From positions 1 to 64,000 of the forward strand of contig CAJJBU010000001.1 in the NCBI GenBank assembly GCA_905182495.1: DNA of 64,000 nt, given 5' to 3'. This document shows, piece after piece, positions 17,803 to 35,203 of the stretch (position 1 is the stretch's first letter; each line of letters opens with the position of its first letter). The notes beneath the pieces are model-generated. The model saw only the letters and a program-made list of their open reading frames with translations, did no database searches and had not been told where the DNA came from. The position numbers and the translations under genes were made by a program. This DNA is from Flavobacteriales bacterium UBA952. Lineage in GTDB: Bacteria > Bacteroidota > Bacteroidia > Flavobacteriales_D > Crocinitomicaceae.

Positions 17803-18798
17803 ATGAAGACTTTTTTCTTATGTGTTCTATTTTACTTATATGTTGGAAGTCATTCTTTCGGGCAGGATATTCATTGGTCTCAATTTAATGACAATCAACT
17901 CTATCAGAACCCGGCCCATGCAGGACATTTTGATGGTGACGTAAGATTTATTGGGAATTATAGAGACCAATGGAGAAGTGTAACCGTACCCTTTAGCACA
18001 ACAGCGATCTCTGTGGATACGAAATTTAAAAAAATTGGACTGGGACTAAATTTATTCAATGACCAGGCTGGCGATGGTAAATTCAGAACGGTTGAGGTTC
18101 AAGGGAATATTTCATATGCATTTAATTTAGGTAAGGATTCAACGCATGTGATTAGGCCGGGCATTAATTTTGGAATGAACCATCGGCAAATCAATTGGGA
18201 TGCTTTGTATTTTGACACGCAATACAACGGGTATGTCTTCAACCCTGCAGCACCTACCTTTGAAAATTATCAAAGTGACAGAAAAACAAATGCAACTTTA
18301 GGTGCAGGTTTTATATATGAATGGAGAAAAAGTAATCGTTTTAAAGTACTACTCGGCTCAAGTGTATTTAATTTAAACACTCCGAATCAAGGCTTTTATA
18401 ACGCAGAAGTAAAAAGGGCAATCAGAAGCAATTCCTTTATAAAGGGAACTTTTACCCTCAATGAGAAATGGGATCTTATACCTAGTGTTCAATATAGTGC
18501 ACAGGATGTATATAAAGAATTGATCTTTGGGGGTTCTGGAAAATACTATCTGAACCATCCGAAAAAAGTTTATGCCGCTATATATGGTGGGTTATGGTAT
18601 AGAAATAGTGATGCTGCTTACATTAGCGTAGGCTATGACTATGCTGACTTATTTGTTGGTATTAGCTATGACATCAACTTCTCTAAATTAGTCCCTGCAA
18701 GTAGGGCCAGAGGAGGAATAGAATTCGCCGTTCGCTATATCATTAAAAAATTCAAACCTAAAAGAATCATACACAGAGTATGCCCAGACTATATATAG
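17803..18798 (+). CDS. PorP/SprF family type IX secretion membrane protein
   Basis: A 331-residue outer-membrane barrel protein with a signal peptide (to about residue 20, HSFGQ). It has the strong PorP/SprF signature DIHWSQFNDNQLYQNPAHAG, then NYRDQWRSVTVPFSTTAISVD and GLGLNLFNDQAGDG. It ends with repeated strand-like segments (YISVGYDYADLFVGISYDI). PorP/SprF proteins bind T9SS substrates or cooperate with adjacent OmpA-type partners. The next gene, overlapping by 19 bases, is just such a partner. Confidence 0.93.
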   Translation: MKTFFLCVLFYLYVGSHSFGQDIHWSQFNDNQLYQNPAHAGHFDGDVRFIGNYRDQWRSVTVPFSTTAISVDTKFKKIGLGLNLFNDQAGDGKFRTVEVQGNISYAFNLGKDSTHVIRPGINFGMNHRQINWDALYFDTQYNGYVFNPAAPTFENYQSDRKTNATLGAGFIYEWRKSNRFKVLLGSSVFNLNTPNQGFYNAEVKRAIRSNSFIKGTFTLNEKWDLIPSVQYSAQDVYKELIFGGSGKYYLNHPKKVYAAIYGGLWYRNSDAAYISVGYDYADLFVGISYDINFSKLVPASRARGGIEFAVRYIIKKFKPKRIIHRVCPDYI

Positions 18799-21023
18799 TT
18801 TCCTTGTTGTTTGTCTGCCTTACCTTTTCCGGATTGGCGCAAAAAAAACTCAAACAAATCATTGCATTTGCAGATGAGCAATATGTTAAGGGCGATTTCT
18901 ACTACGCACTAGAATATTACAAGCAAGCTTTAAAAAAAGACTCTAACTCAATTAAGCTCCTTTGGAAGTATGCGGAAACCTTACGGTCATATAAAGACTA
19001 TGCTAACGCAGAAACCTACTATGCCAAAGTATACGCGAGAGAGCAGACAAAAACTTATCCAAATAGTCTTTTGAATCTCGCACTCATGCAAAAGCAAAAT
19101 GGCCGCTACACGCAAGCCATCAAAACATTAGAATTAAGTGCTGAAAAACTAGAAAGAATTAAAATCAGCCCTTTTTATATAAAGACTATCAGAGAAATAG
19201 AATCGTGTAAATGGGCGCTTAAAAACTCACTAGATTCTTCTGAATTCACCCCCCTCGTTCACCTTCCTGAAACCGTAAATTCTTATGACGCTGAATTTGG
19301 ACATACCATCAAAGACAACAGATTGGTTTTTTCTGCTTTAAAAGCGGACTCTTCTAACCAGCAAGAAGAAGTCTATGACCAAGCCTATCGCACCAGGCTT
19401 TATTATAGCGTAAGAGATAGTCTAGGAAATTTCCAGCCTTCTAAAATAAATGAAGACCTATTTCATGAAAAATTAAATTATGGAAATGGTAGTTTTTCCA
19501 TCGATGGTCATTATTATTATTTCAGTATCTGTGAAGACGACGGCTTTAGCTATAGCTGCAATATTGTAGTCGCAGAATGGGAGGATAGTTTATTTCAAAT
19601 CAGAGACACCCTCGGTATCGAAATTAATCAGAACGGTGCCAACAGTACAATGCCATATTACACTCGATTTAGAGATAAAGAAGTATTGGTTTTTTCTTCT
19701 GATAGAAAGGGTGGAATTGGAGGAATGGACATTTGGTATGCCGAGAGTATTGATGGAATCTCATTTATGCCCGCTATTAATATTAAAGGAATAAACTCCT
19801 CGGAAAATGAGCTAACCCCATGGTATGATACGATAAGTAATCAGCTCTTTTTCTCATCTACATGGCATAATGGATTTGGCGGACATGACATTCATTCAAG
19901 CACTTATATTGGAGGTGTATTCTCGAGTCCAGAAAATGCTGGACAGCCCATTAATAGTCCCGCAAATGATCTTTATTACTTTGAGCATAGAGATAGTTCT
20001 TACATTTCTTCAAATAGGGTGGGTGGGTTTTATACTAAAAACCCCACCTGCTGTAGTGACATATATGCATCCTATCCAATCATTGAATTAATTACGGAAG
20101 AAAGCATTACAGACACAATCCTAATAGAAGATCGCTTAAAACAAATGTTTCCGATTACACTTTATTTCAGGAATGATGAACCCGATGCATCCACCTATCG
20201 CGCAACTACAAAACAAACTTACATAGAGACTTACCAAAAATATGTCGATCATTACGATTACTACAAGGCGGAGGTCTCCAAAGGCATAAGTATAGATAAA
20301 GCACAAGTCTATGTGAATGAGTTAGATGGTTTCTTCAAAAACAAAGTTGACTTTGGTTCATCCATGTTAGATACAATAACATCGATACTACTAAAAGAAT
20401 TAATAGCAGGTTCACGAATCGAGGTCAGTATCAAAGGCTTTGCAAGCCCCGTTGCCAACACCGCATACAATGTTAATCTCACCAAACGGAGAATTTCATC
20501 ACTTATCAATTATTTTAAATCAACAGACGGTGGTGCATTTGCCAGTTATATAGAAAATGAAACCCTTTCCTTTACCTTCATTCCTTTTGGAGAATACGCG
20601 GCTGATCAAACAATAAGCGACGATGTTGTAGTACAAAACGAGTCTGTATATTCAAGAGCGGCTGGATTGGAAAGAAAAATACAAGTAGCACATGTAACTA
20701 TTGAACGAGACAAATCAATTTTCCCTTTAATGGCCCAAAATCTCGTTCAAAATTTAGAGAACAAAAAAAGTGGATCTGTTATCACTAGCACGTTTATTGT
20801 TAAAAACAAATCGAGTGAGAAAATAGAAATCATCCTTCCAAGCAATACCGAATTTCAAAAATACAATATGGATAAGCTTGAGGTTCTCCCTAATGAAAGC
20901 CAAAAGATAACCTATCTGTATGATACAAAAGATTTAAAAGGACATCAATCATTGTCCTTTGAAATCATGGTTCATGGCTACGAAGGAAGTATGACTCTTT
21001 ATACCAATATAGAACTTGAATAA
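18780..21023 (+). CDS. PorE-like OmpA-family protein (TPR, PD40 repeats, OmpA domain)
   Basis: A 747-residue secreted protein. It begins with a signal peptide ending near SGLAQ, then TPR-like helices (residues 20-150), then PD40/WD40-like propeller blades (LVFSSDRKGGIGGMDIWYAES, LFFSSTWHNGFGGHDIH). An OmpA-like domain follows around residues 520-640 (VSIKGFASPVANTAYNVNLT). A final Ig-like segment of about 90 residues comes after the OmpA domain (ending LYTNIELE), which is less common. PorE-type proteins tie the T9SS trans-envelope complex to peptidoglycan. Overlap with the PorP/SprF gene indicates a functional pair. Confidence 0.88.
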   Translation: MPRLYIVSLLFVCLTFSGLAQKKLKQIIAFADEQYVKGDFYYALEYYKQALKKDSNSIKLLWKYAETLRSYKDYANAETYYAKVYAREQTKTYPNSLLNLALMQKQNGRYTQAIKTLELSAEKLERIKISPFYIKTIREIESCKWALKNSLDSSEFTPLVHLPETVNSYDAEFGHTIKDNRLVFSALKADSSNQQEEVYDQAYRTRLYYSVRDSLGNFQPSKINEDLFHEKLNYGNGSFSIDGHYYYFSICEDDGFSYSCNIVVAEWEDSLFQIRDTLGIEINQNGANSTMPYYTRFRDKEVLVFSSDRKGGIGGMDIWYAESIDGISFMPAINIKGINSSENELTPWYDTISNQLFFSSTWHNGFGGHDIHSSTYIGGVFSSPENAGQPINSPANDLYYFEHRDSSYISSNRVGGFYTKNPTCCSDIYASYPIIELITEESITDTILIEDRLKQMFPITLYFRNDEPDASTYRATTKQTYIETYQKYVDHYDYYKAEVSKGISIDKAQVYVNELDGFFKNKVDFGSSMLDTITSILLKELIAGSRIEVSIKGFASPVANTAYNVNLTKRRISSLINYFKSTDGGAFASYIENETLSFTFIPFGEYAADQTISDDVVVQNESVYSRAAGLERKIQVAHVTIERDKSIFPLMAQNLVQNLENKKSGSVITSTFIVKNKSSEKIEIILPSNTEFQKYNMDKLEVLPNESQKITYLYDTKDLKGHQSLSFEIMVHGYEGSMTLYTNIELE

Positions 21024-21024
21024 T

Positions 21025-21420
21025 CTATTCTGAAACAGAATTAATCTTAGACTGAATAACTTCTAATTGTGATGAAGACAACGCTAATTTAGCATTACTA
21101 AAATTCATGTCTTTCATACTTTGCATCGGCACCAAGTGGATATGTGCATGAGGCACCTCTAAACCGATAACCGACAACCCAATACGTTTACAAGGGATCG
21201 CCTTTTGTATACGTTTGGCCACCTTCTTTGAAAAGATAACCATGTCCTTTAATAGGGAATCATCAATATCAAATAAATAATCGATCTCTTGTTTAGGAAT
21301 AACAAGCACGTGACCTTCCACTAAAGGGTTAATGTCCAAAAAAGCCAAAAACGAATCATCTTCTGCTATTTTATAGCAAGGCAATTCCTCTGAAATAATT
21401 TTAGAAAAAATACTAGACAC
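21025..21420 (-). CDS. HIT family nucleotide-binding hydrolase
   Basis: A 131-residue histidine-triad protein with the triad HAHIHLVPM near residues 95-103 and the N-terminal SIFSKIISEELPCYKIAEDD typical of Hint-type enzymes, which hydrolyse nucleoside phosphoramidates. It lies directly downstream of greA (one-base overlap), so the two are probably co-transcribed. Confidence 0.94.
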   Translation of the reverse strand: MSSIFSKIISEELPCYKIAEDDSFLAFLDINPLVEGHVLVIPKQEIDYLFDIDDSLLKDMVIFSKKVAKRIQKAIPCKRIGLSVIGLEVPHAHIHLVPMQSMKDMNFSNAKLALSSSQLEVIQSKINSVSE

Positions 21421-21893
21421 TAACGGCTAATTTCAATGATTTCAAATTGCATAGTTCCACCCGGCGTAACAACATCTGCAATATCTCCTTTAGATTTACC
21501 GAGCAAACCTTTTCCAATAGGTGATTCAATCGATATCTTCTTCAATTTTAAATCTGCCTCATTCTCAGCCACAAGGGTGTACTGAATCTCCATTCCGGTT
21601 GAAACATTCTTGATTTTAACAATAGAAAGAATATAAACCTTTGAATTATCAATATTGGTGTCGTCTATTAAGCGTGCATTGGAGATGACCTCACCTAGTT
21701 TAGAGATTTTCATTTCTAAAATACCTTGTGCTTCCTTTGCCGCATCATATTCAGCGTTCTCAGAAAGATCACCCTTATCACGAGCCTCACCTATTTGTTG
21801 AGAAATAGACGGCCGTTGGACAGTTTTTAACTCATAGAGCTGGTCCTTAAGCTTTTTAAGGCCCTCTGGGGTGTAATAATTAATCTTCGACAT
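21420..21893 (-). CDS. greA: Transcription elongation factor GreA
   Basis: A 157-residue protein starting MSKINYYTPEGLKKLKDQL. It has the coiled-coil N-terminal domain (IGEARDKGDLSENAEYDAAKEAQ, carrying the acidic tip residues that coordinate Mg in the polymerase channel) and the C-terminal FKBP-like domain (SPIGKGLLGKSKGD). The frame extends upstream to 21938 but the extra residues do not resemble GreA. GreA rescues backtracked RNA polymerase by stimulating transcript cleavage. Confidence 0.97.
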   Translation of the reverse strand: MSKINYYTPEGLKKLKDQLYELKTVQRPSISQQIGEARDKGDLSENAEYDAAKEAQGILEMKISKLGEVISNARLIDDTNIDNSKVYILSIVKIKNVSTGMEIQYTLVAENEADLKLKKISIESPIGKGLLGKSKGDIADVVTPGGTMQFEIIEISR

Positions 21894-21956
21894 TTTATGT
21901 ATAAGTATAGAAACAAGCCCATAACGGGCTATCATCAAGAGAGGTTTATTGTTGTT

Positions 21957-23006
21957 TTATTTTAGGCTTATTGTTGCACCTATTGTATGAATTGTACCAA
22001 AGACACCCGCAAACCTTGCACAGTACTCAATTCCCAATGCACTCTTATTCTCCCCTACTAAGGCATCAATAGAGAATCCAGCCGTTGGACCAATCAAAGC
22101 ATTTGAACGGCTTTCAACAGAAAATAAACCCTTTTCGTAAACAAATCCTCCACGTAGGTTAAATGCCATTCTTTCATTAGTCATTCCATAATCTAAACCT
22201 ATTCTGTACTGATCGTACGAAAAGGAATTAGCTGTAAAACCTAAAGCTAAATTGAGCTTGTTACTTTCATTGAAAATAAAATCATAAGACCCACCAATAC
22301 AAAGTAAAGACGGCATTTCAAATCCCGAAGATCGTTCTTCAAGAGATGCAATATAACCTGTCGTAACATACTCGGCTTGCTGCGCCAATCCATCACCTTT
22401 GTACTTCATCACTGGACCTACATTCTTTAAAGTAATTCCAAACTTGATTTGCTCTTGTTCACCCGTTACATAACGTATCCCTGCATCAATTGCCAGACCT
22501 GAGGCCTTTAGGTTCGAAATGCTCTCAGAAATCACTTTAAAATTAATTCCACCAGAAATACTAGAAGAAAACTTTCTGGCATAACCAACATTGAAGACAT
22601 TTGTTCGTGGTGAAAAGAAGCCAATTGAGCCTTCCGGATTTTCAACAGTCGTGATCGCTATATCACCATAATTCATTGATTGGATACTAATTGCTATGAC
22701 ACTTGATTCCGATATTCTTTGAGCTATACCTGCTGAATTAAAAGAAATTCCTGCACTCCCCATCCAATTGCTATAGTTGAATTTCATTTGTGTTTGGTCT
22801 GTAAAAGCCAAACCCGCAATATTCATAAAACTCGCCTCTAATCCGTTAACACTTGAGATTCCAGCATCACCGATTGCGGAGCTACGGGCCCAAGGGTTAA
22901 TCAAAAGATGTGATGCTCCTGCAGATCCAACACGGTCTTCATTTCCTGCAAAGACCATAGGAGATAAACATAAAAGAACAAATGCAATTTTTAAACTATT
23001 CTTCAT
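21957..23006 (-). CDS. PorV/PorQ family outer-membrane protein
   Basis: A 349-residue protein with a signal peptide (cleavage after VFA) and a FadL-like barrel of the PorV/PorQ type. Features are AGASHLLINPWARSSAIGDAGI near the mature N-terminus, FMNIAGLAF, and repeated amphipathic strands to the end. PorV (LptO) carries type IX cargo and presents it to the PorU sortase. Here the gene is last in a three-gene unit with a huge secreted protein and a TonB-dependent receptor, which suggests a dedicated shuttle or assembly role for that cargo (inference). Confidence 0.85.
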   Translation of the reverse strand: MKNSLKIAFVLLCLSPMVFAGNEDRVGSAGASHLLINPWARSSAIGDAGISSVNGLEASFMNIAGLAFTDQTQMKFNYSNWMGSAGISFNSAGIAQRISESSVIAISIQSMNYGDIAITTVENPEGSIGFFSPRTNVFNVGYARKFSSSISGGINFKVISESISNLKASGLAIDAGIRYVTGEQEQIKFGITLKNVGPVMKYKGDGLAQQAEYVTTGYIASLEERSSGFEMPSLLCIGGSYDFIFNESNKLNLALGFTANSFSYDQYRIGLDYGMTNERMAFNLRGGFVYEKGLFSVESRSNALIGPTAGFSIDALVGENKSALGIEYCARFAGVFGTIHTIGATISLK

Positions 23007-23034
23007 AACTAATTCTTTCTAATTTCAATTCTAA

Positions 23035-26000
23035 TTATATACCCTGTAAGTCAACTTGTCTCATGCCACCGAAAAACTTCAGCACCTTTTCTCCTACGTC
23101 AGGAACCGAAACGTGTATCAAGTATATACCTGAGGCAACAGGTATCGCTTTAAAGTTTGTCAAATCCCAATCTAAAGAAGTAATTGGACTGTCCTTTTGA
23201 AATCTTCTAATAAGCTTTCCATTAACCGAGTAAATACTTACGGTACATTGTTCAGGGAGATTTGTGATTTTAACTTTAGTTTCCAATCTATTTCTTTCAT
23301 ACTCAGAGAAAGCATAATAAGGATTCGGAACCACATTGATCAAATCTAAGGCTTCCTTCAATTGGTCTTTCGATGCTGTTACGGTTGCAATAGCATCCAT
23401 ATTCCAAGAGTACATTGGTTTTCCACCATTCGCGCCTGTTGCAACATAATCTTTATATTCTTTATTGACACGAAGCTTCATCGTAACATCTGTTGAAAGT
23501 AAATCCTGACCTTCTTTCAGCATTGGATAACACACCCATGTTAATGAAGCATATAACGGACGACTATTTGATGTTGTTGGATTTGCTTCTGCTACATTAT
23601 ATTGGATACGAAGCTGGTTCAAGCTTTCAAATACGGCTTCCACTGGATTGTACGCTGGGAAATCAAATGATTGATTATATCCATTAATACTTTTCAAATC
23701 CTTACTGAAAATATAAATTGGATGTACACCGCCCATTACTGGGGTCCCTACATTACTTACCAAATTAGAAGTAGGGTTCCATATCATATCCGCACCATTC
23801 TCACCACCCAAGAATGAATTCTCTCCAAAGGCCATATATAATCTAGCTCCTGTTTCTAAGTCTATTGCATAGCCTGGGAACCAACCCATTCCATAGCTCT
23901 GTGCAACTCCTTCGCCTGGGATTATTTGATCCCCATTTTTATCAACACTTGGGCTTCGACGGACCTCTCCTGCACTAGCACCTCCGATATTCAATCCAGA
24001 ATCTCTACCTGTTTCAATAACAGGGCAACGCGTCCAAAGACTTTCATCGCTCGTAAACACGATATCTACACTCGGCGCAAAGCTAATGGCCGCATTCTTA
24101 CGAACATTCGTTGCTACACTTCCCATATATGCCATAGGTGCATAGTCCGCTTTATACCCAACCAGTTGATGTGGTGCTATAATTCCTTCAAGAATACCCT
24201 CCCATGCTGGGCTTTGGTCTGAAGTAATCTCATCTTTGTAATTACAAGGATTGAAGTAACTAGGTCCATCAGGCTGACATTCATAACCAGCGTCTGTTTC
24301 ATCAATTACTGGGTCATATTCACCACAAACAATCCAATTTGTTGGAAAGTATGCGTCATTGTCATTTACTCCTGTTAACCATTGTTTAGAAGAATCTGCA
24401 AAGTTAATACTTGAAGAAATCATCGTAGTCGTTTTGGTCTCTGGACCTCCTGAACTACCACTTGCAGGTACAAAATATTTCTCTTGATTAATTTGAACCG
24501 AAATACCCCATTCAGGAATAATCTGCTCGTTATCAAAAGCAATGCTTCTTTGAGATGTCGCGGAATCTAATGGCGTCACATCCCCCTCGTTAGCGTAGCG
24601 ATAAATTACCCAACTCGCTGTATCTGCTGCATTACCAGAGTTTTGTACGGTATAATCTCTGAACTTACACTCAAAGTAACCGTTCGCTAAATTCAATGGG
24701 TCTACAACCTTTACATTGATAGGACCTTTGCCATAATCATAAGTTGGCGTTTCCATAAAGCCAGTTGCTAAGATCTCATCTATACTTTCTTGAGTCAATT
24801 CTAGTTCTCTGTTCCCGTTACCATAACCATCTAATCGTGTGATACGTGGAGACGAACCATACGCAATTAACTGAGCAGTACCACCTGATTCAGGAATAGG
24901 ACTGTGGGGAACCGCAGCTGTGCTTGTAATCGCGGTGCCATCAAAATTCAATCGAGAAGAAATATAAGGTTTTCGCTGCCCATCTAAGGCAGTAGGGTCT
25001 TCAGGATTATAGGTCTTGAAGTTATTATAAGCATAAGCCACTGCAACGTAGTAATAAGACTTGTGATTAACTAGTGTTTTACTTCCTTGCGCAAATTTAT
25101 CCTCGGTTAGATTGAAGGAATGCTTTATTCCTTTATTTGATCCATCAACCATTTCTGTTGGAATTGAAAAACCTAAAGCCTCATCAAATTGAAAATTTAT
25201 AATTCTTTCAATTCCATTCTCGACATCACATTGCGCGACCAAACGTGCTTTTTCAGGGTCTGAGATATCTGCAACTGAAGTCTCTACATCTTTCAATTGA
25301 TAAATTTGATATCCTTCAAACCTATAATATCTATCCACTGTTGGATCTGCAATATTAATTTCATCTAATTCCTCATACCCTTCCTCATAATTATTTGAAG
25401 ATGACGGATTATCTATCATAAGAACCAATTCGTTTTCAAGCTCCTGAATGGTTAAACGAGGTGCGTCAGGCGGAGAAAGAATTTTAAAACAAGCATCAAA
25501 TAAAGCCTGTGCCTTAGTATCAGCTTGTTTCATTGCTTCAACTGAAGCATAAAGATCTCCGTCTGTGCTACGTCCAAATACGATACCGACCGTAATATTA
25601 TTAATAGCTCCCGGCCTTAATGTAAATGGGCCTGCAGACTGAACAAATCTCCGGTCACCACTTGGGTTATTATTAGTACTTTCAAACCATCCATCAGGAA
25701 AAGCTCCTGACATATCAACACCACCTGTGGCCCAATTTAAAGGATCAGAATCCCCTGGGAACATATAGTCAGACAAAACAGTCGTTGCACCTGTTGAACC
25801 GGTATATCCAAGGCCACCATAGAACATTTCAGAACCATTTGACCAATTACCTTGCATAAAATTATAATACTCAGCAGCATTTTGTGGATCATTGTATGGA
25901 GGCTGAGAAGTTGACGTATAATAGGTAAACCTTCTCATGCCAAAACGTTCATTATCGATAATACTATCAGAGTATCCAATACCGACACCTTTATATACAA

Positions 26001-27243
26001 TACCATTATTTGCTAAAGCATCTGTTACAGATGGCACAACGTCCAAACCTGTTTCTTCATCAAAATATGGACCGGGGTTGTCTAAGTCATCTGCATCTTG
26101 ATATGGGCCTTCAAAGAAATCACATCCAATCGCAGGAGGGTTTGCTCCGTATCCTGGTCTACCACCATCTGCTTCGTCAATTAAATCTCCATTTAAAGTA
26201 TACCCTAAGCCTCTGGAAACATCACAACCCACATAATCATCTGTATAATTACCTACATCAGCATCTAAGTATTGAGAGAAATAAGTCTCGTACAAGGTCT
26301 GGGTCCCTCTATTGATCAACTCATAATTATAAAACGTCATTCTGTTCACTTCGTCATTGGTCGCAAAAGCAAATGCTTGCGCTCTAATCTCCATACCAAT
26401 AGGATCACCATTCGTTTCCGTATGAATATTCCCTTTGTCATTAAATACCCACCAATGTGTTTCATCTCCAAATAACGAGATACGTCTATCGATACCGCAT
26501 TCAATGTCGTCTCGACCTAGGATGTCATCATACCATGGGTGATCACCTGCATCAGGGTTGTAATTTCCATCTTCATCACGGTCATAAAAAGGTGCTAAGA
26601 AGTAATCTTGACCCCTTGAAACATCTCCATGTGCTGGCCAACCATAAATACGCTGTAATTCATCATTTGATGGTTCCGTTATATCGTCGCAACCTTCAGT
26701 AACTTCACCTGAGTTACAAGCCCACCAGATATTAAAACGAATCACTTCCGCTTTGCGAATTGTATAAATTTTATCATAGGCTTGGCACTGATCAGGATCA
26801 ATATTTGCTTCTCCAAAATCACGAACAGCATCATCACCAACAGGGTAAAGGGGATTATAATTACCCGAACCTGGAGTAACAGTTAATGGTCCTGGCCAAA
26901 AGTCATTTCCTGTTCGGTAACGTAAGGCCGCCAATTTAAGCTGACCATTGACATCGGTTCCTCCCATCCAGAGTGCTCCAGCATAAATAGCATTAAGACC
27001 ACTTCCTTTGGGGACTTCGTATGCTGCTGTACCATCTTGACGATTTTGAAACATACTTCCACCTTGTTCAATGAGTGCTGCCACATCGTTAAATTCCAAT
27101 GTGAGTTTGGCTGTCGCAGGACTACAGTTTGCACCTTTTGCTGTGTTATCTGTAGATCCCTTTTTGTCATGCGGACCGAGATAAGACCAACCTGGAATCG
27201 TAATACTTAATCCTATTAATGTAGCGAATAACTGCTTTTTCAT
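23035..27243 (-). CDS. Very large secreted protein with C-terminal T9SS-like sorting fold
   Basis: A 1402-residue protein with a signal peptide (about residues 1-20). Acidic, Asp/Asn/Gly-rich stretches include calcium-loop-like motifs (DRDEDGNYNPDAGDHPWYDD near residue 220). Its last 95 residues resemble a FlgD/T9SS type A sorting domain: NVVPNPYYAFS, VKITNLPEQCTVSIYSVNGKL, VASGIYLIHVSVP. After that domain the chain continues for about 15 residues to QVDLQGI, an atypical end. No enzymatic motif was recognised. Similar giants sit beside TonB receptors and PorV-like proteins in other Bacteroidota, as far as I recall. It is probably exposed at the cell surface; the function is unknown. Confidence 0.75.
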   Translation of the reverse strand: MKKQLFATLIGLSITIPGWSYLGPHDKKGSTDNTAKGANCSPATAKLTLEFNDVAALIEQGGSMFQNRQDGTAAYEVPKGSGLNAIYAGALWMGGTDVNGQLKLAALRYRTGNDFWPGPLTVTPGSGNYNPLYPVGDDAVRDFGEANIDPDQCQAYDKIYTIRKAEVIRFNIWWACNSGEVTEGCDDITEPSNDELQRIYGWPAHGDVSRGQDYFLAPFYDRDEDGNYNPDAGDHPWYDDILGRDDIECGIDRRISLFGDETHWWVFNDKGNIHTETNGDPIGMEIRAQAFAFATNDEVNRMTFYNYELINRGTQTLYETYFSQYLDADVGNYTDDYVGCDVSRGLGYTLNGDLIDEADGGRPGYGANPPAIGCDFFEGPYQDADDLDNPGPYFDEETGLDVVPSVTDALANNGIVYKGVGIGYSDSIIDNERFGMRRFTYYTSTSQPPYNDPQNAAEYYNFMQGNWSNGSEMFYGGLGYTGSTGATTVLSDYMFPGDSDPLNWATGGVDMSGAFPDGWFESTNNNPSGDRRFVQSAGPFTLRPGAINNITVGIVFGRSTDGDLYASVEAMKQADTKAQALFDACFKILSPPDAPRLTIQELENELVLMIDNPSSSNNYEEGYEELDEINIADPTVDRYYRFEGYQIYQLKDVETSVADISDPEKARLVAQCDVENGIERIINFQFDEALGFSIPTEMVDGSNKGIKHSFNLTEDKFAQGSKTLVNHKSYYYVAVAYAYNNFKTYNPEDPTALDGQRKPYISSRLNFDGTAITSTAAVPHSPIPESGGTAQLIAYGSSPRITRLDGYGNGNRELELTQESIDEILATGFMETPTYDYGKGPINVKVVDPLNLANGYFECKFRDYTVQNSGNAADTASWVIYRYANEGDVTPLDSATSQRSIAFDNEQIIPEWGISVQINQEKYFVPASGSSGGPETKTTTMISSSINFADSSKQWLTGVNDNDAYFPTNWIVCGEYDPVIDETDAGYECQPDGPSYFNPCNYKDEITSDQSPAWEGILEGIIAPHQLVGYKADYAPMAYMGSVATNVRKNAAISFAPSVDIVFTSDESLWTRCPVIETGRDSGLNIGGASAGEVRRSPSVDKNGDQIIPGEGVAQSYGMGWFPGYAIDLETGARLYMAFGENSFLGGENGADMIWNPTSNLVSNVGTPVMGGVHPIYIFSKDLKSINGYNQSFDFPAYNPVEAVFESLNQLRIQYNVAEANPTTSNSRPLYASLTWVCYPMLKEGQDLLSTDVTMKLRVNKEYKDYVATGANGGKPMYSWNMDAIATVTASKDQLKEALDLINVVPNPYYAFSEYERNRLETKVKITNLPEQCTVSIYSVNGKLIRRFQKDSPITSLDWDLTNFKAIPVASGIYLIHVSVPDVGEKVLKFFGGMRQVDLQGI

Positions 27244-27282
27244 ATACGTAACGTTTATTCTTGTGTTGTTGAAATAATTCTA

Positions 27283-30200
27283 TTAAAAGTCAAATTTAAT
27301 CCCCAAACGAATCTGTCTAGGGGCACTAATGTTGAACGGATTTTGAACCTTCATCATATAGTAGTCTCTAAAAGCCTGCTCATCAATTTGATTTTGAATG
27401 GATGTTTGACTTGCTGCCGCGGCTAAATACCCATCGTCATCCCAGTTACCAGTTGCCCGATAAACGCCTAAAACATTAAATTGATTCAGTAAATTAGTGA
27501 CTCTAAGGTAAACATTGAAATAGGCCGTTTTTTTCTTGTCTTTATCACCACCATAACTCAATTCCATAGTTTTGTCAATTTGCATATCTAAACGATATGA
27601 CCATGGCAATCTAGAACCATTTAAAGTACCATTCAAACCAGCATTCAATGCTCCTGACTGAGCGTCATTAGTAATAAAGGTTTGAGAAGAATAAGGTGAT
27701 CCCGAATAAACATTAGAGATCAGATTCAATCCTGTATTTTCAAATAAGTTTAATTTACCGATACTTGGTCCGTTGTAATCTGCTCCATCTTTATACCTAA
27801 AATCAAACACAACATTAATTGCGTGACGTTGGTCATAAGAATAAGGGAATATATTTCGAAGGTTCGGGAGACCTGCATTAATTAATGCGCTCGCAGATGT
27901 TGCATCTGAACCAGTACCTTCAGCAAATTGAAGTGTGTAGTTTGCTGTCATTCTGATATTTCCTGTTCTTCGAAGATCATAAGCTACAGTTAAACCTTTA
28001 ATTGTTCCAAAGTCTCTATTGCCATAAGTTTTATAAGTGGACGGATATGCTTGGAAAACATTGATTAACTGAACGTTATTTCTTTGTTCACGATAGAACG
28101 CTGAAACTTTTATTGAAGATGACTTAGAAAGCACTTGTTGAAAGCCAATTTCATAATCAACTGTTGTCTCCGGTTTTAAGTTCGAGTTACTTATGATCGC
28201 ACTTCTAGATTGAATAAATTGATATTCAAAAGGGTCAAATCGAAATCCAGAAGTTGGACGCTTTGTTAAGATGTCATAATGTGCTGTAAAGGATGCCTCA
28301 TCCGAAATAGGGAAGGAAAATGCAATTCTAGGCATGAAATTAACTTGAGCCTTGTAGTCTTCAAAGGCACTAGCGTCAGGTGTTTCTTGACCTGGGTTTA
28401 ATAACCAAGGCGCTATACCAGCTGCTCCCTGAAGAACCGAAGGGTCTTCAATTGGAGTTCCATCAGCATTGTACCAATTTTGGCCTGTTCTAAATCCATT
28501 GATTGATGATGGACTATTCACATCATTTACATAAACGACATAGTCGTCACCCATTCCTGAAGGCAGATTAACCCAAGCATATTGGTCAGGATCAGCCTCT
28601 TTTAAAGCTTGTGCCTCACCAACAGTTCTCGCATTATAAAACAAATAAGGGTCTTTTAGGATAGGTTGGTTTGCGTCGAATACATCAACCCGAACACCAA
28701 CCGTAAACCAAATGTCTTTAAAGGCAAACTTATCCATAATATAACCAGCCATATAGATTGGTTGGAAAGCACCTACAAATCTTTTGTAATTTCCATTTTC
28801 GTCGAACTCGTTGAAGTACTTATTGATGTCTGTATTTCCTTTGACTTTTTCACCGGTATGGTCAAATCCCCAATAGGATACAAATGAATTACCACTATTT
28901 AAAAGTTCGTCTGGCGAGAACATATCAAACTGAAATAAATTAGGGTCGTAATTGTCAATGTCAATAAAATCATCTCCATCTACTGCTAGGTTCAGGTTTG
29001 AACGAAGATTATAATCAAAGAACGATTGGTTGTCATCATTTAACTGTCCGCCATATTCACCCGTTCCCGATGATGAAGCATAACCAGAATTCAATCGGTC
29101 ATATGTAATGGCCTTAAATGATCCTGAATCAGATAGAACTCCAGAATTCAAATCAAGCTCTGTAATATGAAAATTTGCTAATTGACGGGCAATCGTCCAA
29201 ATGCCAAGTGGCCCTTGCGTTCCACCACCTGTAGTTGTTCCTGATGTCCATCCTCTATCCAAACGCTGCTCGTATTCAAATCCCAAGGAAATTGAATGTT
29301 CACCGATCTGAACAGCACCTGAACCCGTAACACGAAACTGGTCGTTTTCCGTTTTACCAAAGTAATTATACGGAGCTCCGATATTACTCCAAATAGCATA
29401 AACATCCCCAGGAGCATCTCCATTCCTCAATGCATTACCTTGTTGAATCTGAAATAAGTTTTCATAATGCCCCTCGGTTTCTCCACTATAGATATCATAG
29501 TATTGACTCGTTATAGCAGCTAAGGAAGCATTGGTTTCTGAAGGTGTAAAAGAAACTTCTAAATCTCTAAATCCATTATGGATATATGTATTAGTAACTT
29601 GGTCAAACTCATAAGATGGAATTCTTGAGGTTTCAAACGTACCTACGTGACCATAATTAAACATGTTGTATTTATGCTTTGGGTCATAGACATCCCTCTT
29701 TGTCTTGGTGTAATCAACCATTAAGCTATAGTTGGCAGATTTGATTTTTGAGCTACTTTCTTTTGTACTGGTAAAACGTTGGGTAAATCGACCAAAAACA
29801 CGGTAGTCTAAAGCTTCAGAAACTCCAAAGTTCCCAAAGTTCAATAAAGAACCTGTGTATGAGTAATTATTTCCATTGCTGTAATTCAGGGATCCACCAA
29901 ACTGCAGGTTGACACTTGGTCCTGTATTTACATCTATTTTCCCTTGGGCAGAAATTGAAGTTGATCGCGCATTCATTCTCCACGCCGTTTTTTCGAAATC
30001 AGACTCATTTAGGAATAGTGCATTATGAAAAGTTCCAAAACCAGTTGACGTTGGACGTAATGGATTAGTCAATAGGTCATCTCGCACATCTTGTTTGATA
30101 CGATATGTACCGCCAGAAAGAGGTCTAGAATCCAATCTGTCCGAATAATTTGCAGAGATTAAAAAACCTAAAATTGGATTGGTTTTGTTACCGACCGAAT

Positions 30201-31044
30201 CTCTTCTCATTAAAAGCGGACCTGAAAGCATCCCTTCAAAAAGGTTGTATCCAAACTGATCTAAACCATAAACTTTACCATCGTATCCATCAGGGTCTTC
30301 ACCATTGATGTAGATTCCAGAAGAAACTGCCTCAATACTTCCAAAGTACGTTTTTGATGGACCTCTAGTTGTAATTGATATAATACCACCTGTAACATCC
30401 CCATAATTGGCAGGGACCCCACCCGTAATAACAGAAACTTCTTGTAATGCAGATTTTGGTAGATTGGCAGACCCACGAACCTTTATACCATCTATATAAT
30501 AATAAGTAGCATCAGATCGCGACCCTCTAACCGATATGGCACCAGAGCCTTCATTCGTTTGAACACCACCTACCGTACCGGCAACAGCAGCGGCAGACCT
30601 TACAGGTAAGCGTGCAATATCCTCACGAGTAACTGTACTTCCTGAAGAACCATTTGGATCGATAAGCGGTTGTACATATACGGTGACGATAACCTCGCCG
30701 AGCTGCTGAACACTTTCAGCAATTCCCAATTCAAGATTTTTAAGATCTGTAGTTTTATCAGAGGAAACAATAACTCCAGACCTCTTTATAGGCTGATAAC
30801 CTGCATTAACGTTGCTGATTTCAACATCATAAGAACCTGGCTGAAGCGCATTAATCTGAAATTTACCATCCAAATCAGAGTATGCACCTCCTTTAACGCT
30901 TCCGTTTACCCTAAGTTTAATGGAGCAATCAGGTATAGGCTTCCCGCTCTTAGCATCCTTAACCATACCTTTAAGAGACTGGGAAAACCCATAAGTACTT
31001 AAAAACAAAGTACTTAAGAAGATAAAAAATAAATTACGAACCAT
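27283..31044 (-). CDS. TonB-dependent receptor with carboxypeptidase-regulatory-like domain
   Basis: A 1253-residue outer-membrane protein. It has a signal peptide (cleavage near YGFSQ), a CarboxypepD_reg-like/Ig domain (about residues 24-105: LKGMVKDAKSGKPIPDCSIK) and a plug domain (LPVRSAAAVAGTVGGVQT, AISVRGSRSDATYYYIDGI, GGIISITTRG). A 22-strand-type barrel follows, ending RQIRLGIKFDF with the terminal Phe of outer-membrane barrels. No SusD-like gene is adjacent. Instead it precedes the 1402-residue secreted protein (39-base gap) and a PorV-like gene. A near-consensus -7 box TATATTTA lies about 42 bases upstream (31087-31094). The ligand is unknown. Confidence 0.92.
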   Translation of the reverse strand: MVRNLFFIFLSTLFLSTYGFSQSLKGMVKDAKSGKPIPDCSIKLRVNGSVKGGAYSDLDGKFQINALQPGSYDVEISNVNAGYQPIKRSGVIVSSDKTTDLKNLELGIAESVQQLGEVIVTVYVQPLIDPNGSSGSTVTREDIARLPVRSAAAVAGTVGGVQTNEGSGAISVRGSRSDATYYYIDGIKVRGSANLPKSALQEVSVITGGVPANYGDVTGGIISITTRGPSKTYFGSIEAVSSGIYINGEDPDGYDGKVYGLDQFGYNLFEGMLSGPLLMRRDSVGNKTNPILGFLISANYSDRLDSRPLSGGTYRIKQDVRDDLLTNPLRPTSTGFGTFHNALFLNESDFEKTAWRMNARSTSISAQGKIDVNTGPSVNLQFGGSLNYSNGNNYSYTGSLLNFGNFGVSEALDYRVFGRFTQRFTSTKESSSKIKSANYSLMVDYTKTKRDVYDPKHKYNMFNYGHVGTFETSRIPSYEFDQVTNTYIHNGFRDLEVSFTPSETNASLAAITSQYYDIYSGETEGHYENLFQIQQGNALRNGDAPGDVYAIWSNIGAPYNYFGKTENDQFRVTGSGAVQIGEHSISLGFEYEQRLDRGWTSGTTTGGGTQGPLGIWTIARQLANFHITELDLNSGVLSDSGSFKAITYDRLNSGYASSSGTGEYGGQLNDDNQSFFDYNLRSNLNLAVDGDDFIDIDNYDPNLFQFDMFSPDELLNSGNSFVSYWGFDHTGEKVKGNTDINKYFNEFDENGNYKRFVGAFQPIYMAGYIMDKFAFKDIWFTVGVRVDVFDANQPILKDPYLFYNARTVGEAQALKEADPDQYAWVNLPSGMGDDYVVYVNDVNSPSSINGFRTGQNWYNADGTPIEDPSVLQGAAGIAPWLLNPGQETPDASAFEDYKAQVNFMPRIAFSFPISDEASFTAHYDILTKRPTSGFRFDPFEYQFIQSRSAIISNSNLKPETTVDYEIGFQQVLSKSSSIKVSAFYREQRNNVQLINVFQAYPSTYKTYGNRDFGTIKGLTVAYDLRRTGNIRMTANYTLQFAEGTGSDATSASALINAGLPNLRNIFPYSYDQRHAINVVFDFRYKDGADYNGPSIGKLNLFENTGLNLISNVYSGSPYSSQTFITNDAQSGALNAGLNGTLNGSRLPWSYRLDMQIDKTMELSYGGDKDKKKTAYFNVYLRVTNLLNQFNVLGVYRATGNWDDDGYLAAAASQTSIQNQIDEQAFRDYYMMKVQNPFNISAPRQIRLGIKFDF

Positions 31045-31153
31045 AGTGATATAATCGTTTGTTTAAAATTCTGTAGTTTTAAGAGGTAAATATAGAAAAA
31101 AACATGGTCTTTAAAAAATTGTTAAAAACATTTAAGGTGAAAGCAAACCTTTC

Positions 31154-31161
31154 TACATTTG
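31154..31161 (+). promoter_or_regulatory. -7 box TACATTTG for the phosphopantetheinyl transferase gene
   Basis: A perfect TAnnTTTG match 44 bases before the GTG start at 31206, within the divergent gap with the TonB receptor gene. No -33 element at ideal spacing was seen. Confidence 0.5.
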
Positions 31162-31205
31162 ACTTAAATTTACGACTATTATTTCAGAATTAAAAATTGA
31201 ATTAG

Positions 31206-31796
31206 GTGATTGTATTTGAACGCTTCGGAGCTCAATTCGGTATGCTATCTAAAGACCTCATAGAACACAATACTTTTTTGTATCCTAATGAAATTCTAGA
31301 GCTCCAAAAAATCAAAAATCAAGCAAGAAAGAATGAATTTATTGGCGTTCGACAATTGCGAAATACCGTAGCTGAAAATCAAGAAATATCTTATGGTATA
31401 AATAGAAAGCCACTGCTGGAGAAAGGAGGTCATGAGATTTCTATTTCGCATTCGGCACAAAGCATTTGCATTGGCGTTTCAAACACCAATATTGGTATTG
31501 ACATAGAAGTGCCGAGCGAACGTGTTTTGCGAATAAGGTCAAAATTCTGTCATAAGGATGAATTCAATTTATTCGATCAAAACTCAATCAGTGACATGAC
31601 ACTATTGTGGACCATTAAAGAAGCTGCCTATAAATACGCTTCACAAGCTGGGTTAGACTTTAAAAACAACATTCGAGTTCTACAAAAAAATGGCAATAAA
31701 CATATTTGTAGAATCACTAAATCAAATCGTGTTATTGAAGTCGCCATGGCTCACGAAATTGTCGATGGACAAATATTAACATACACAACTTCATAG
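31206..31796 (+). CDS. 4'-phosphopantetheinyl transferase superfamily protein
   Basis: A 196-residue Sfp-type transferase that would attach phosphopantetheine from CoA to carrier proteins. Diagnostic motifs are ISISHSAQ, IGIDIEVPSERV (Mg-binding Asp and Glu) and LLWTIKEAAYKY (W-x2-KEA). The chosen start is a GTG codon that gives VIVFERFG; no nearer ATG keeps the N-terminal region. It overlaps nothing and is followed after one base by the GGGP-synthase-like gene, so the two form an operon. Confidence 0.9.
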   Translation: MIVFERFGAQFGMLSKDLIEHNTFLYPNEILELQKIKNQARKNEFIGVRQLRNTVAENQEISYGINRKPLLEKGGHEISISHSAQSICIGVSNTNIGIDIEVPSERVLRIRSKFCHKDEFNLFDQNSISDMTLLWTIKEAAYKYASQAGLDFKNNIRVLQKNGNKHICRITKSNRVIEVAMAHEIVDGQILTYTTS

Positions 31797-31797
31797 T

Positions 31798-32526
31798 ATG
31801 AATATACTCAGCTACTTTCAAAAAATAGAAAAAGGTATTGCCGTATTAATCGACCCAGATAAATTCAATGATATCAGCTCATTATCATTTTTTTTAGATA
31901 ACATTCAAATAGCACAACCTCACATGGTATTTATAGGGGGTAGTTCCGTTTCCAAGGTAGACTTCACGCGTTGTGTTGAATTGGCAAGGCAGAAACTTGA
32001 CATACCGGTTGTTCTTTTTCCTGGAGCATCTCATCATATATCGAATCAAGCAGATGCCCTTTTGTTTCTTTCATTGATCTCTGGTAGAAACCCTGACTTC
32101 TTAATTGGACATCACGTGGACGCAATTGATGACCTAGAGGAAATAGATCTCGAAGTCATCCCTACGTCTTATCTACTTATAAATGGCGGAAAAATGACCT
32201 CCGTAGAATATGTTTCAAGAACAGTTCCTATTCCTCAGAATGAGATAACCATTGCAAGAAAAACCGCAATGGCCGGTAAGTACTTAGGCCATCAACTCAT
32301 TTATGCAGATGCAGGAAGCGGGGCATTAAATCCTATTAACAGTAAAATGATTTCGGCATTGGCTAAAATAGGATCGCCGTTAATAATTGGAGGTGGAATA
32401 AGATCGATTGAAGCCATTGATCGAGCACATAAGCATGGCGCGAACATCGTTGTGATCGGCAATAAGCTAGAGGAAAATATTGATTTTCTCCTCGATTTAA
32501 AACACTACTTAAAAACGAGCCTTTAG
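31798..32526 (+). CDS. Geranylgeranylglyceryl phosphate synthase family protein (PcrB-like)
   Basis: A 242-residue TIM-barrel prenyltransferase. It has the sn-glycerol-1-phosphate site motifs AVLIDPDKF, VFIGGSSVS, YADAGSGA and IIGGGIRSIE, and the FPGASHHIS and LISGRNPDFLIG segments of the GGGPS/PcrB family. Archaea use the enzyme for ether lipids; in Bacteroidota the physiological product is not established in my knowledge. The gene follows a phosphopantetheinyl transferase and overlaps the convergent nadC by 18 bases. Confidence 0.93.
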   Translation: MNILSYFQKIEKGIAVLIDPDKFNDISSLSFFLDNIQIAQPHMVFIGGSSVSKVDFTRCVELARQKLDIPVVLFPGASHHISNQADALLFLSLISGRNPDFLIGHHVDAIDDLEEIDLEVIPTSYLLINGGKMTSVEYVSRTVPIPQNEITIARKTAMAGKYLGHQLIYADAGSGALNPINSKMISALAKIGSPLIIGGGIRSIEAIDRAHKHGANIVVIGNKLEENIDFLLDLKHYLKTSL

Positions 32527-33342
32527 ACTTAAATCCAAACTCTTTACAGAATGCGTTAAAGCGCCCATGGAAATATAATCAACTCCTGTTTCGGCAAATG
32601 CAACAATCGTTTCTTCTGTAATACCTCCAGAAGCTTCAGACTCAATGAACTCTGGAATCAAACCAACTAAACTAGAAAGTTCCTCAGGTGTGAAATTGTC
32701 TAATAATATTCTTTGCATCCCTGCGATCTCTATGGCCTCGATTAACTCGGCTTTAGTTCTAACCTCAATCTCAATTCCTATAGCGTTTTCGAGCCCCGCT
32801 ACATAGCTCAATGTTTTTTTCATTGCATTTTGGATACCTCCGGCGTAATCAATATGATTGTCTTTGAGCATGATCATATCATACAATCCAAAACGATGGT
32901 TGCACCCCCCCCCAATTACCACCGCCATTTTCTCTAGGAGCCGAATTCCAGGTGTCGTTTTTCTAGTGTCTAGTATTTTTGCATTCGTATGGGCAATCTG
33001 ACGAACAATTTTATTGGTTTTTGTAGCGATACCACTCATCCTTTGCATGATGTTTAGCACTAATCTCTCCGTACTTAATATTGATCTTGCCAGACCCGAC
33101 ACTTCCAGGACAATATCTCCAACGCTTATCCGGCTGCCATCTTCTATCAAAACATGAACTTCTAAGGATGGGTCATAAAGCTGGAAAACGCGTCTAGCCA
33201 CTTCAACTCCCGCCAAAACTCCAGATTCTTTAACTAATAATTTAGCCGAACCTTTATCGGCATCTGAAAGACAAGAAAGAGAAGTGTGATCCCCATCTCC
33301 AATATCTTCTTTCAGGGCATTTAAAATTATATCATCTAACAT
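32509..33342 (-). CDS. nadC: Nicotinate-nucleotide pyrophosphorylase (carboxylating)
   Basis: A 277-residue quinolinate phosphoribosyltransferase, which makes nicotinate mononucleotide from quinolinate and PRPP in de novo NAD synthesis. Motifs are EDIGDGDHTSLS, RILDTRKTTPG-type ILDTRKTTPGIR, GGGCNHRFGLYDMIMLKDNHI and LLDNFTPEEL. The triple glycine of GGGCNHR is encoded by nine consecutive G residues (32905-32913 on the opposite strand as C9), an unusually long tract inside an essential-type gene. A -7 box lies five bases before the ATG. Confidence 0.97.
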   Translation of the reverse strand: MLDDIILNALKEDIGDGDHTSLSCLSDADKGSAKLLVKESGVLAGVEVARRVFQLYDPSLEVHVLIEDGSRISVGDIVLEVSGLARSILSTERLVLNIMQRMSGIATKTNKIVRQIAHTNAKILDTRKTTPGIRLLEKMAVVIGGGCNHRFGLYDMIMLKDNHIDYAGGIQNAMKKTLSYVAGLENAIGIEIEVRTKAELIEAIEIAGMQRILLDNFTPEELSSLVGLIPEFIESEASGGITEETIVAFAETGVDYISMGALTHSVKSLDLSLKARF

Positions 33343-33347
33343 AACTA

Positions 33348-33355
33348 CAAATATA
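33348..33355 (-). promoter_or_regulatory. -7 box TATATTTG for nadC
   Basis: A perfect TAnnTTTG match on the minus strand, only five bases before the nadC ATG, suggesting a leaderless transcript. No -33 element was identified. Confidence 0.5.
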
Positions 33356-33397
33356 TAGGAATGCTTTATTCTACGGATTAGTTTTTAAATTTATAGC

Positions 33398-35203
33398 ATG
33401 AAGTTTTTATCGACCGATCTTCAAAATTCATTGCAGGTTCTGCCTTCATCTCCCGGTGTCTACAAGTTTTTAAATGATCTCGATGTAATTATATATATTG
33501 GAAAAGCAAAAAACCTAAAAAAACGAGTTCAATCCTACTTTTTGAAGAACAATTCAAGTTTTAAAACCAAGGTTCTTGTTAAATCAATTTACCGTATTGA
33601 ACACGTTGTAGTCGCCTCTGAAACAGATGCTTTGTTGTTAGAAAACAACCTTATAAAATCTCATCAGCCGAAATATAATGTTCTGCTCAAAGATGACAAA
33701 ACTTACCCATGGATTGTGGTGAAAAAAGAGCCCTTTCCACGAATTTTTTCAACACGAAATAAAATCAAAGATGGCTCCACTTATTATGGCCCCTATACAA
33801 GTGTCCGTCAAATGAACATTCTTTTGGAACTTATTAAAGAGCTGTACCCGATCAGAAGCTGTAAACTAGATCTGGCACAAGTGAAAATTAATGAAAAGAA
33901 ATATTCTGTTTGCTTAGATTACCACATAGGGAAATGTGCTGGCCCATGCGAACAAAAACAAAATGAGGAAGCGTATAACACCCTGATCGATGAAGCGAAA
34001 CTATTACTAGCCGGAAAGACAAACTCGCTAATACGTTTGCTTAAAGAGAGGATGGCTTTACATGCCGATCGTTATGAATTTGAAAACGCTGAAAAATTGA
34101 AACGTAGTATTTTGAGTATCCAAAAATACAATGCAAAATCAATTATTGTTTCGGATTTGAAAAACCTAGACGTGTTTACCATACTCAAAAAGGAAAAAGA
34201 ATTTTACCTCAACTTCTTAGTGATTGTAGAAGGAGCAATTGTATATGCTTATAGCAATAAAATAAAAGACCCTTTGGAGAGTACGGCCGAAGAGATAAGC
34301 ACCGTTCAAATCGATCTTCTTAAAGAAAAATTCAATAGCAAGAATACCTTAGTGCTAGTAAATACAAAACTTGAACTTCAGCACCCGAGTTATACATTCG
34401 AATATCCACAAAGGGGTAGTAAGAAGCAGCTTATAGACTTGTCTATACAAAACGTGCACGCTTTCTTATTGAACCAGCGAAAAAAGGCAATTCTTCAGAC
34501 AAAAAATAGCAATGAACAAAGAATACTAGAAACGATTCAAAAGGAATTCAGGCTCAAGGAGCTTCCAAAACACATGGAGTGTTTTGACAATTCAAATCTC
34601 CAAGGGACCCACGCCGTTTCTGCTTGCGTTGTCTTTAAAAACGGCAAACCCTCAAAAAAAGACTACCGGCATTTTAATGTTAAAACAGTAGAGGGGCCTG
34701 ATGACTTTGCAACAATGAAAGAAGTTGTTTATCGCAGATACAAAAGACTTCTCGATGAACAAAGTTCTTTGCCGCAACTTGTAATTGTAGATGGAGGCAA
34801 AGGGCAACTAAGCTCAGCTGTAGAGGCGTTAGAACAACTTAATCTAAGAGGTAAGGTCCCCATTGTTGGAATTGCAAAAAGACTTGAGGAAATTTTCTTT
34901 CCAGGTGACTCCTACCCCATCTATTTAGACAAAAGAAGTGAAAGCTTAAAACTCATTCAGTTTATGAGAAACGAATCGCATCGATTTGGAATTCAGCACC
35001 ACAGAAACAAACGCAGTACACATGCACTTCAAACACAAATGGACTCCATCGAGGGCATTGGCCCCAAGACAATAGAGGCTCTCTTTCAAAACTTTAAAAC
35101 CATTGAAGGAATAAAAAATGCAAATGAAGTTCAGCTGCAGAAAATAGCAGGGATTAAAAAGTCAAAACTCATTAAAGAGTATTTTAAGAAGCAGAACTTA
35201 TAG
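33398..35203 (+). CDS. uvrC: Excinuclease ABC subunit C
   Basis: A 601-residue UvrC of normal size. It has the N-terminal GIY-YIG nuclease (PGVYKFLNDLDVIIYIGKAK, about residues 18-40), the UVR domain around residues 205-240, and the RNase H-like 5' nuclease (CFDNSNLQGTHAVSACVVF, then VIVDGGKGQL). Tandem helix-hairpin-helix motifs close the protein (IEGIGPKTIEALF, IAGIKKSKL). It makes both incisions in nucleotide excision repair. Its 3' end overlaps the convergent metalloprotease gene by six bases. Confidence 0.98.
   Translation: MKFLSTDLQNSLQVLPSSPGVYKFLNDLDVIIYIGKAKNLKKRVQSYFLKNNSSFKTKVLVKSIYRIEHVVVASETDALLLENNLIKSHQPKYNVLLKDDKTYPWIVVKKEPFPRIFSTRNKIKDGSTYYGPYTSVRQMNILLELIKELYPIRSCKLDLAQVKINEKKYSVCLDYHIGKCAGPCEQKQNEEAYNTLIDEAKLLLAGKTNSLIRLLKERMALHADRYEFENAEKLKRSILSIQKYNAKSIIVSDLKNLDVFTILKKEKEFYLNFLVIVEGAIVYAYSNKIKDPLESTAEEISTVQIDLLKEKFNSKNTLVLVNTKLELQHPSYTFEYPQRGSKKQLIDLSIQNVHAFLLNQRKKAILQTKNSNEQRILETIQKEFRLKELPKHMECFDNSNLQGTHAVSACVVFKNGKPSKKDYRHFNVKTVEGPDDFATMKEVVYRRYKRLLDEQSSLPQLVIVDGGKGQLSSAVEALEQLNLRGKVPIVGIAKRLEEIFFPGDSYPIYLDKRSESLKLIQFMRNESHRFGIQHHRNKRSTHALQTQMDSIEGIGPKTIEALFQNFKTIEGIKNANEVQLQKIAGIKKSKLIKEYFKKQNL

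Follow-up and report, generated by a model that had tools for sequence, protein, structure and literature searches.

SusCD systems combine a TonB receptor, which carries an N-terminal extension of the carboxypeptidase-regulatory type, with a large outside partner. In type IX secretion, type A cargos are described as dependent on PorV and type B cargos as having private PorP/SprF shuttles (PMC12618676), and within the pore the sorting domain is reported to be bound by SprA and by loops of PorV (PMC10994853). PorU is described as retained on PorV and PorZ on PorQ, and these cognate barrels may shield the domain from cleavage (PMC10202324). Oar, a TonB-dependent transporter, is reported to be required for secretion of the protease PopC (PMC6434023), and in BamG–BamH a surface protein is described as attached to a FadL-type barrel (PMC12611786, PMC12578637); the available text of the latter two papers presents no type IX-domain protein with its own TonB receptor. 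A literature search, with preprints and most subscription papers outside its scope, returned no account of an operon comprising a TonB receptor, a cargo and a PorV-type protein, in keeping with the original prediction, made from the DNA alone, that such a module is undescribed.

The window analysed here is a stretch of 64,000 nucleotides from Flavobacteriales bacterium UBA952, whose genome spans 2.48 Mb in 27 contigs and is 85% complete. It encodes three large envelope proteins, all on the minus strand: a TonB-dependent receptor of 1253 aa (27283..31044), then a giant secreted protein of 1402 aa (23035..27243) and then a PorV-family outer-membrane barrel of 349 aa (21957..23006). The reading frames lie where they had been predicted, with 39 bases between receptor and giant and 28 between giant and PorV-type gene. 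Each of the three starts with a Sec-type signal peptide as judged by eye, and the giant has no lipobox by the same criterion. We see about an even chance that the giant is exported by type IX secretion, held by its own PorV-type barrel and works with its own TonB receptor in a single outer-membrane surface complex. On the same strand, 18 bases 3′ of the PorV-type gene, lie greA and a HIT-family gene (window 21025-21938), which possibly share one transcript with it. A separate gene at 35198-37378 encodes an M43 metallopeptidase that carries an ordinary type IX sorting domain and, scoring below cutoff, a PKD-like stretch.

The conserved order of these genes in many distant members of the phylum suggests an undescribed type IX-built cell-surface machine. 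With the giant as query, matches at E 0.001 were found in 59 of 60 related genomes, some of them fragments at contig ends; these 59 include 22 of the 23 genomes that belong to other families of the order. A profile built from 15 giants matches 138 of 395 genomes of the phylum at E 1e-20; outside the class, most of the matches listed cover the N-terminal part (to about position 715) or the last 125 positions and omit the middle. Outside the order, receptor, giant and PorV-type gene follow one another in the same order and on the same strand in 37 of 40 inspected loci, which represent 40 of the 138 giant-positive genomes, 20 near the top of the list and 20 lower. The 37 include L148, whose receptor reads as two ORFs; the exceptions are L149, cut by a contig end, and L152 and L163, which are without the neighbours. 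Among 50 well-flanked giants of related genomes, drawn from the best 80 of 234 loci, 38 belong to full triads, 4 have the receptor only and 8 stand alone, so the giant can exist apart, perhaps with the partners of another copy. Across 86 triads, which were chosen as adjacent and include at least one duplicate (L040 and L121), the two gaps have medians of 21.5 and 22 bases. Chance falls far short of explaining the arrangement, and for the operon copy the three families, rather than being scattered independently through Bacteroidota, form a conserved unit, as their predicted co-occurrence implied.

Several individual records deserve mention. L162 carries two tandem triads, the outer PorV being cut by the edge of the fetched stretch, and the triad is present in the Brumimicrobium aurantiacum N62 record (L109). 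L094 (CP034120.1), titled Glaciecola amylolytica, has a triad and a second giant, at 56% identity to the window's giant; this title is probably wrong, and other loci titled Chryseobacterium gleum, Sphingomonadales and Candidatus Planktophila seem mislabelled as well.

The first gene was rightly called a TonB receptor: it scores above cutoff against the Pfam models Plug (38.3 bits, cutoff 23.9), CarboxypepD_reg (46.9, cutoff 32.3) and CarbopepD_reg_2. It also has a stretch that we take to resemble a TonB box, and it ends in F. A strict TonB-box pattern matches just 11 of 86 receptors, but the pattern is too narrow because aligned receptor rows carry a comparable hydrophobic stretch at the same place, and nothing said here on TonB dependence draws on it. 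A search with the receptor sequence against solved structures gave no match. No SusD match was found in the giant, the PorV-type protein or seven neighbouring ORFs (18780-37378, excluding the ORF at 33398-35203), so within this scope the receptor does lack a SusD partner, as proposed. The locus thus resembles SusC–SusD in its TonB receptor with a plug and a carboxypeptidase-regulatory-type domain and in its large outside partner, but differs from it in the lack of a SusD match and in a giant that has no lipobox (by eye) and instead carries a type IX-type domain and comes with its own barrel.

No Pfam or NCBIfam model reaches its cutoff on the giant. The type A sorting models stay below theirs, Por_Secre_tail (PF18962) at 14.4 bits (cutoff 27) and TIGR04183 at 21.5 bits (cutoff 23), and the PorZ model scores 34.9 (cutoff 260) on the C-terminal domain only. 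The Pfam scan yields no C25 peptidase domain and no adhesin domain at E 1, the Pfam and NCBIfam searches no type B (CHU_C) match at E 1, and a sequence search of solved structures no match. AlphaFold models, made from 50-sequence alignments, cover residues 22-770 (pLDDT 71, pTM 0.73) and 700-1402 (pLDDT 80, pTM 0.72).

In the first model, residues 41-588 (25480..27123, minus strand) adopt a beta-supersandwich-like fold, which VIA aligns, over residues ~43-588, with the N-terminal sandwich of dextran dextrinase 9ju0 (Z 18.5, 251 residues, 3.1 Å, 12% identity) and of GH116, GH94 and GH65 enzymes. Foldseek returns E 4e-4, its top six matches having low TM-scores (0.13-0.24). We take the matched sandwich of GH94/GH65/GH116-type enzymes to be non-catalytic and their catalytic part to be the helical barrel, which lies outside the aligned part of the giant. 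The view that the giant has no known enzyme domain therefore stands for sequence and needs qualifying for fold, where the N-terminal half resembles part of such enzymes; on these models the giant may have a link to carbohydrate. Within the same domain, the calcium-loop-like stretch noticed earlier is conserved, with D221, G226, Y228, G233, D234 and P236 invariant in 15 of 15. Residues 591-776 (24916..25473, minus strand) form a possible linker, presumably FnIII-like from the appearance of its sequence, in which distant giants match the profile to about its position 715.

Beyond this linker lies a module at residues 777-1317 (23293..24915, minus strand), discussed below, and its end overlaps a type IX sorting-type Ig fold at residues 1292-1395 (23059..23370, minus strand). 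For this C-terminal domain Foldseek retrieves 5m11 at E 7e-6, as well as the sorting domains in the translocon structures 8gl8 and 8glk (E 3e-3 and 4e-3; TM 0.67-0.68 by target), and VIA aligns it with PorZ (Z 11.5, 88 residues, 2.4 Å, 28% identity), PorU (Z 9.2) and the mirolase CTD (Z 8.2, 68 residues, 1.7 Å). The VIA matches listed for the C-terminal half are taken up by the sorting domain. A tail at residues 1392-1402 (23038..23070, minus strand) follows: giants extend about 8-11 residues past the fold, and in 83 of 86 triads the chain closes with a hydrophobic residue (I, F, L or Y), whereas nine generic cargos of the UBA952 genome stop at the fold, as does the divergent cargo of L177. 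The predicted fold and the conserved tail agree with the earlier description of a sorting-type C terminus that extends beyond it.

The third protein belongs to the PorV family, scoring 46.0 bits against PF19572 (cutoff 27) and 146.8 against the NF033709 subfamily (cutoff 90), and falls below the equivalog cutoffs for PorV (85.3, cutoff 250), PorQ (89.4, cutoff 220) and PorV2 (52.9, cutoff 325). Among sequences of solved structures it matches PorV and no other chain at E 1. In a tree of 57 rows, a single clade (support 100/99) unites 31 of 32 operon PorVs, apart from a nine-row clade that includes the canonical PorVs and from other PorV-family genes; the remaining operon PorV, that of L177, falls in a third clade of eleven rows. 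The PorV-like gene that had been taken to suggest a dedicated carrier is thus a PorV-family member and, judged by this tree, a distinct paralogue. The UBA952 genome has five PorV-family matches, four above cutoff, and some distant genomes have 12-16. At the canonical loci viewed (L269, L281, L284 and L287), PorV adjoins a PorU-like protein of 1258-1350 aa and has no TonB receptor directly upstream; at L284 a receptor begins 3.5 kb downstream.

Two other identities were considered. In known species porU adjoins porV. The giant is nonetheless not PorU: it contains no C25 domain, while a 1719-aa C25 peptidase protein and a 1273-aa protein, called PorU-like from its position and a weak CTD match only, adjoin other PorV-family genes of the UBA952 genome. 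The 1719-aa protein (L271:8376-14629, UBA952 C4) lies beside a further PorV-family gene, separate from the PorU-like/PorV pair of L269, and G038 (L286) has a pair of similar size, so called by size alone. We also set aside, provisionally, the BAM subunits BamG and BamH. Both systems would pair a surface protein with a FadL-type barrel (PMC12611786, PMC12578637); the barrel of the triad matches PorV alone among solved chains at E 1.

Could the giant nevertheless be an ordinary type IX cargo, its C-terminal domain cut and the protein released or attached to LPS, with the PorV paralogue as an extra shuttle and the receptor merely co-regulated? Its type IX fold, the 94 Por_Secre_tail matches in the UBA952 genome and the solo giants (8 of 50) would all be at home in such an account, which we regard as unlikely given the conserved tail where generic cargos end at the sorting domain, the separate clade of the operon PorVs and the linkage of a TonB receptor in the 37 distant loci. 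Retention on a dedicated barrel, as we favour, has precedents. Like PorU–PorV and PorZ–PorQ (PMC10202324), as these are described, the locus would join a retained type IX CTD protein to a PorV-family barrel, and PorZ and PorU head the fold matches to the C-terminal domain of the giant; unlike them, it has a giant without a C25 domain, a TonB receptor in the operon and a different PorV clade. With SprB–SprF and other type B arrangements it shares a cargo gene directly 5′ of its own shuttle-type barrel gene, as described for these (PMC12618676). It departs from them in the type A-like fold of a giant without CHU_C, in a barrel that matches the PorV family and not PorP/SprF, and in the added receptor.

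The original prediction of a self-contained export module does not hold up. UBA952 has SprA. In the phylum, SprA_N occurs in 303 of 395 genomes, including all 138 giant-positive genomes (Fisher p 7e-21, uncorrected for relatedness), so the three genes are not a self-contained exporter. As the giant is found only alongside SprA and has a type IX-type C-terminal fold, it is most likely exported by the general type IX system. The reverse dependence is absent: the class's other orders supply 89 SprA-positive genomes, of which only 5, all from one family, have the giant at E 1e-20, so type IX secretion does without it in the other 84. Among SprA-positive genomes of other classes, the giant is present in 130 of 211.

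This bears on a further explanation, that the TonB receptor serves export or assembly and, instead of importing a ligand, moves or folds the giant outward, by analogy with Oar and PopC, the latter's secretion being reported to need a TonB-dependent transporter (PMC6434023). The position of the receptor upstream of the cargo in the triads would suit this role. An export route is already supplied by the type IX sorting fold and the co-occurrence with SprA, however, and the second giants of L094, L096 and L131 have no second receptor beside them; we find this account distinctly improbable.

On the reading that we favour, the giant would use Sec to pass the inner membrane and then, by virtue of its divergent type A-like C-terminal domain, the type IX translocon (SprA) to pass the outer one. 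Instead of being released, it would stay docked by this domain and the tail on the dedicated PorV-family barrel, much as PorU on PorV and PorZ on PorQ, and its N-terminal sandwich would cover the TonB receptor of the operon, serving as an external lid or to capture a ligand. Such a lid would compare to SusD capping SusC, but would be exported by type IX secretion and not lipid-anchored. We infer the complex, the retention, the lid role, a carbohydrate-like ligand and the direction of import.

Co-variation of residue distances among the three proteins speaks partly for this docking. In partial correlations over triads of the window's own class (56 rows), the N-terminal domain tracks the receptor, at 0.58 (90% interval 0.50-0.67), and shows little relation to the barrel (0.11); the C-terminal domain tracks the barrel, at 0.53 (0.44-0.58), and shows no such relation to the receptor (0.07). 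The 30 rows from other classes again have the N-terminal domain tracking the receptor (0.77) and not the barrel (-0.12), but there the C-terminal domain tracks the receptor (0.55) more than the barrel (0.14), which counts against the docking picture. The own-class correlations thus fit the model and the other-class set fits only half of it, all of these values being subject to saturation, unequal protein length and shared history.

A second giant in the UBA952 genome (C3:213218-217195; L119:8216-12280) is unlinked and has neither a receptor nor a PorV gene adjacent. The two UBA952 giants share every codon of residues 777-963 and 985-1317, differing within the module only between residues 964 and 984, and the flanks are mostly about 60% identical; the shared tract measures about 1.6 kb (window 23293-24915). 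G017 also has a near-identical shared tract, with boundaries at 777-1315, where UBA952 and G017 differ by about 25%. Another 21 genomes of the genus show the step in identity at this same position, from 0.58-0.62 over residues 40-700 to 0.69-1.00 over residues 777-960 (23 comparisons; the ranges omit one G013 pair of second-type copies, at 0.81 upstream), and the weakest step is that of G003, from 0.60 to 0.69. In trees of the part before residue 777, first and second copies separate within the genus, whereas in the module tree copies group by lineage, strictly by genome in UBA952, G017 and G003 and by close relatives elsewhere. A tract identical or nearly so within a genome despite a species difference of about 25%, together with this grouping, shows on sequence grounds that the module is under recurrent gene conversion with boundaries fixed in the genus. 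Pairs from G037, G038 and L094 show no such pattern.

Assembly error is an unlikely source of the identical module, as the two copies sit in unique flanks both in UBA952 and in a single 2.2-Mb contig of G017. Contig ends in 11 other genomes cut the first parts of both copies at the same residue, as expected for true repeats. In L048, L051, L052 and L053, a receptor and a first-type giant are followed by superoxide-dismutase-like and MgtE-like genes (named by eye), which in L119 and L120 come after the second giant; these junctions may reflect a crossover within the shared module or misassembly.

Because the module lies largely within the region unmatched between classes, it may form a specific part of the giant that faces a partner or ligand, and as a gene-converted shared segment it offers a handle on what that surface part must fit. 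The same features, a middle region unmatched between classes and a species-specific module under gene conversion, could also befit a surface adhesin or coat with a structural or cell-contact role, for which the barrel would be an anchor and to which the receptor would be tied for other reasons, and the length of the giant and the lack of a detected catalytic domain would suit it too. Yet conservation is stronger in the N-terminal half, with a mean column identity of 66% against 58% for the C-terminal half, the N-terminal half tracks the TonB receptor, and the adhesin search at E 1 was negative, which leaves this interpretation quite unlikely. Two giants of the genus, with different N-terminal halves, share this 540-residue module, which gene conversion maintains alike in each lineage and which diverges between species.

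More broadly, we raise the possibility, tentatively and with somewhat less than even confidence, that the locus represents a new class of type IX-built uptake machine, in which a cargo has its own PorV-type anchor and TonB receptor: a lipid-free counterpart of SusCD, existing in several classes and multiplied in some lineages, with one barrel and receptor in this genus possibly served by two interchangeable giants. If so, a private PorV-type barrel combined with a TonB receptor would be a third arrangement beside the shared PorV of type A cargos and the private shuttles of type B cargos, it would tie type IX secretion to TonB-dependent transport, and it would help explain the many PorV-family matches in some genomes.

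Further triads with other cargos occur around other PorV-family genes in four distant genomes (G089, G229, G136 and G130), so the operon in the window seems to belong to a larger class of triads, of which it is the most widespread one seen here. In G089, where 12 of 16 PorV-family matches were inspected and one more is the giant's own triad, nine of the 12 loci are triads (L249-L255, L258 and L259), the receptor of L258 lying 1.6 kb off. Triads make up 2 of 7 loci in G229 (L261 and L263), 3 of 8 in G136 (L273-L275) and 1 of 2 in G130 (L268, not L288). Eight cargos of these triads have no Pfam domain above cutoff, and two score below cutoff for CHU_C (17.2 and 19.8, cutoff 27). Near misses include L256, L262 and L277, where a receptor is followed by PorV with no cargo between, and L266, where a giant-family cargo and PorV occur with no receptor. 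Of the 11 PorVs in the third clade of the PorV tree, 10 belong to receptor–cargo–PorV triads of this kind, the exception being that of L262.
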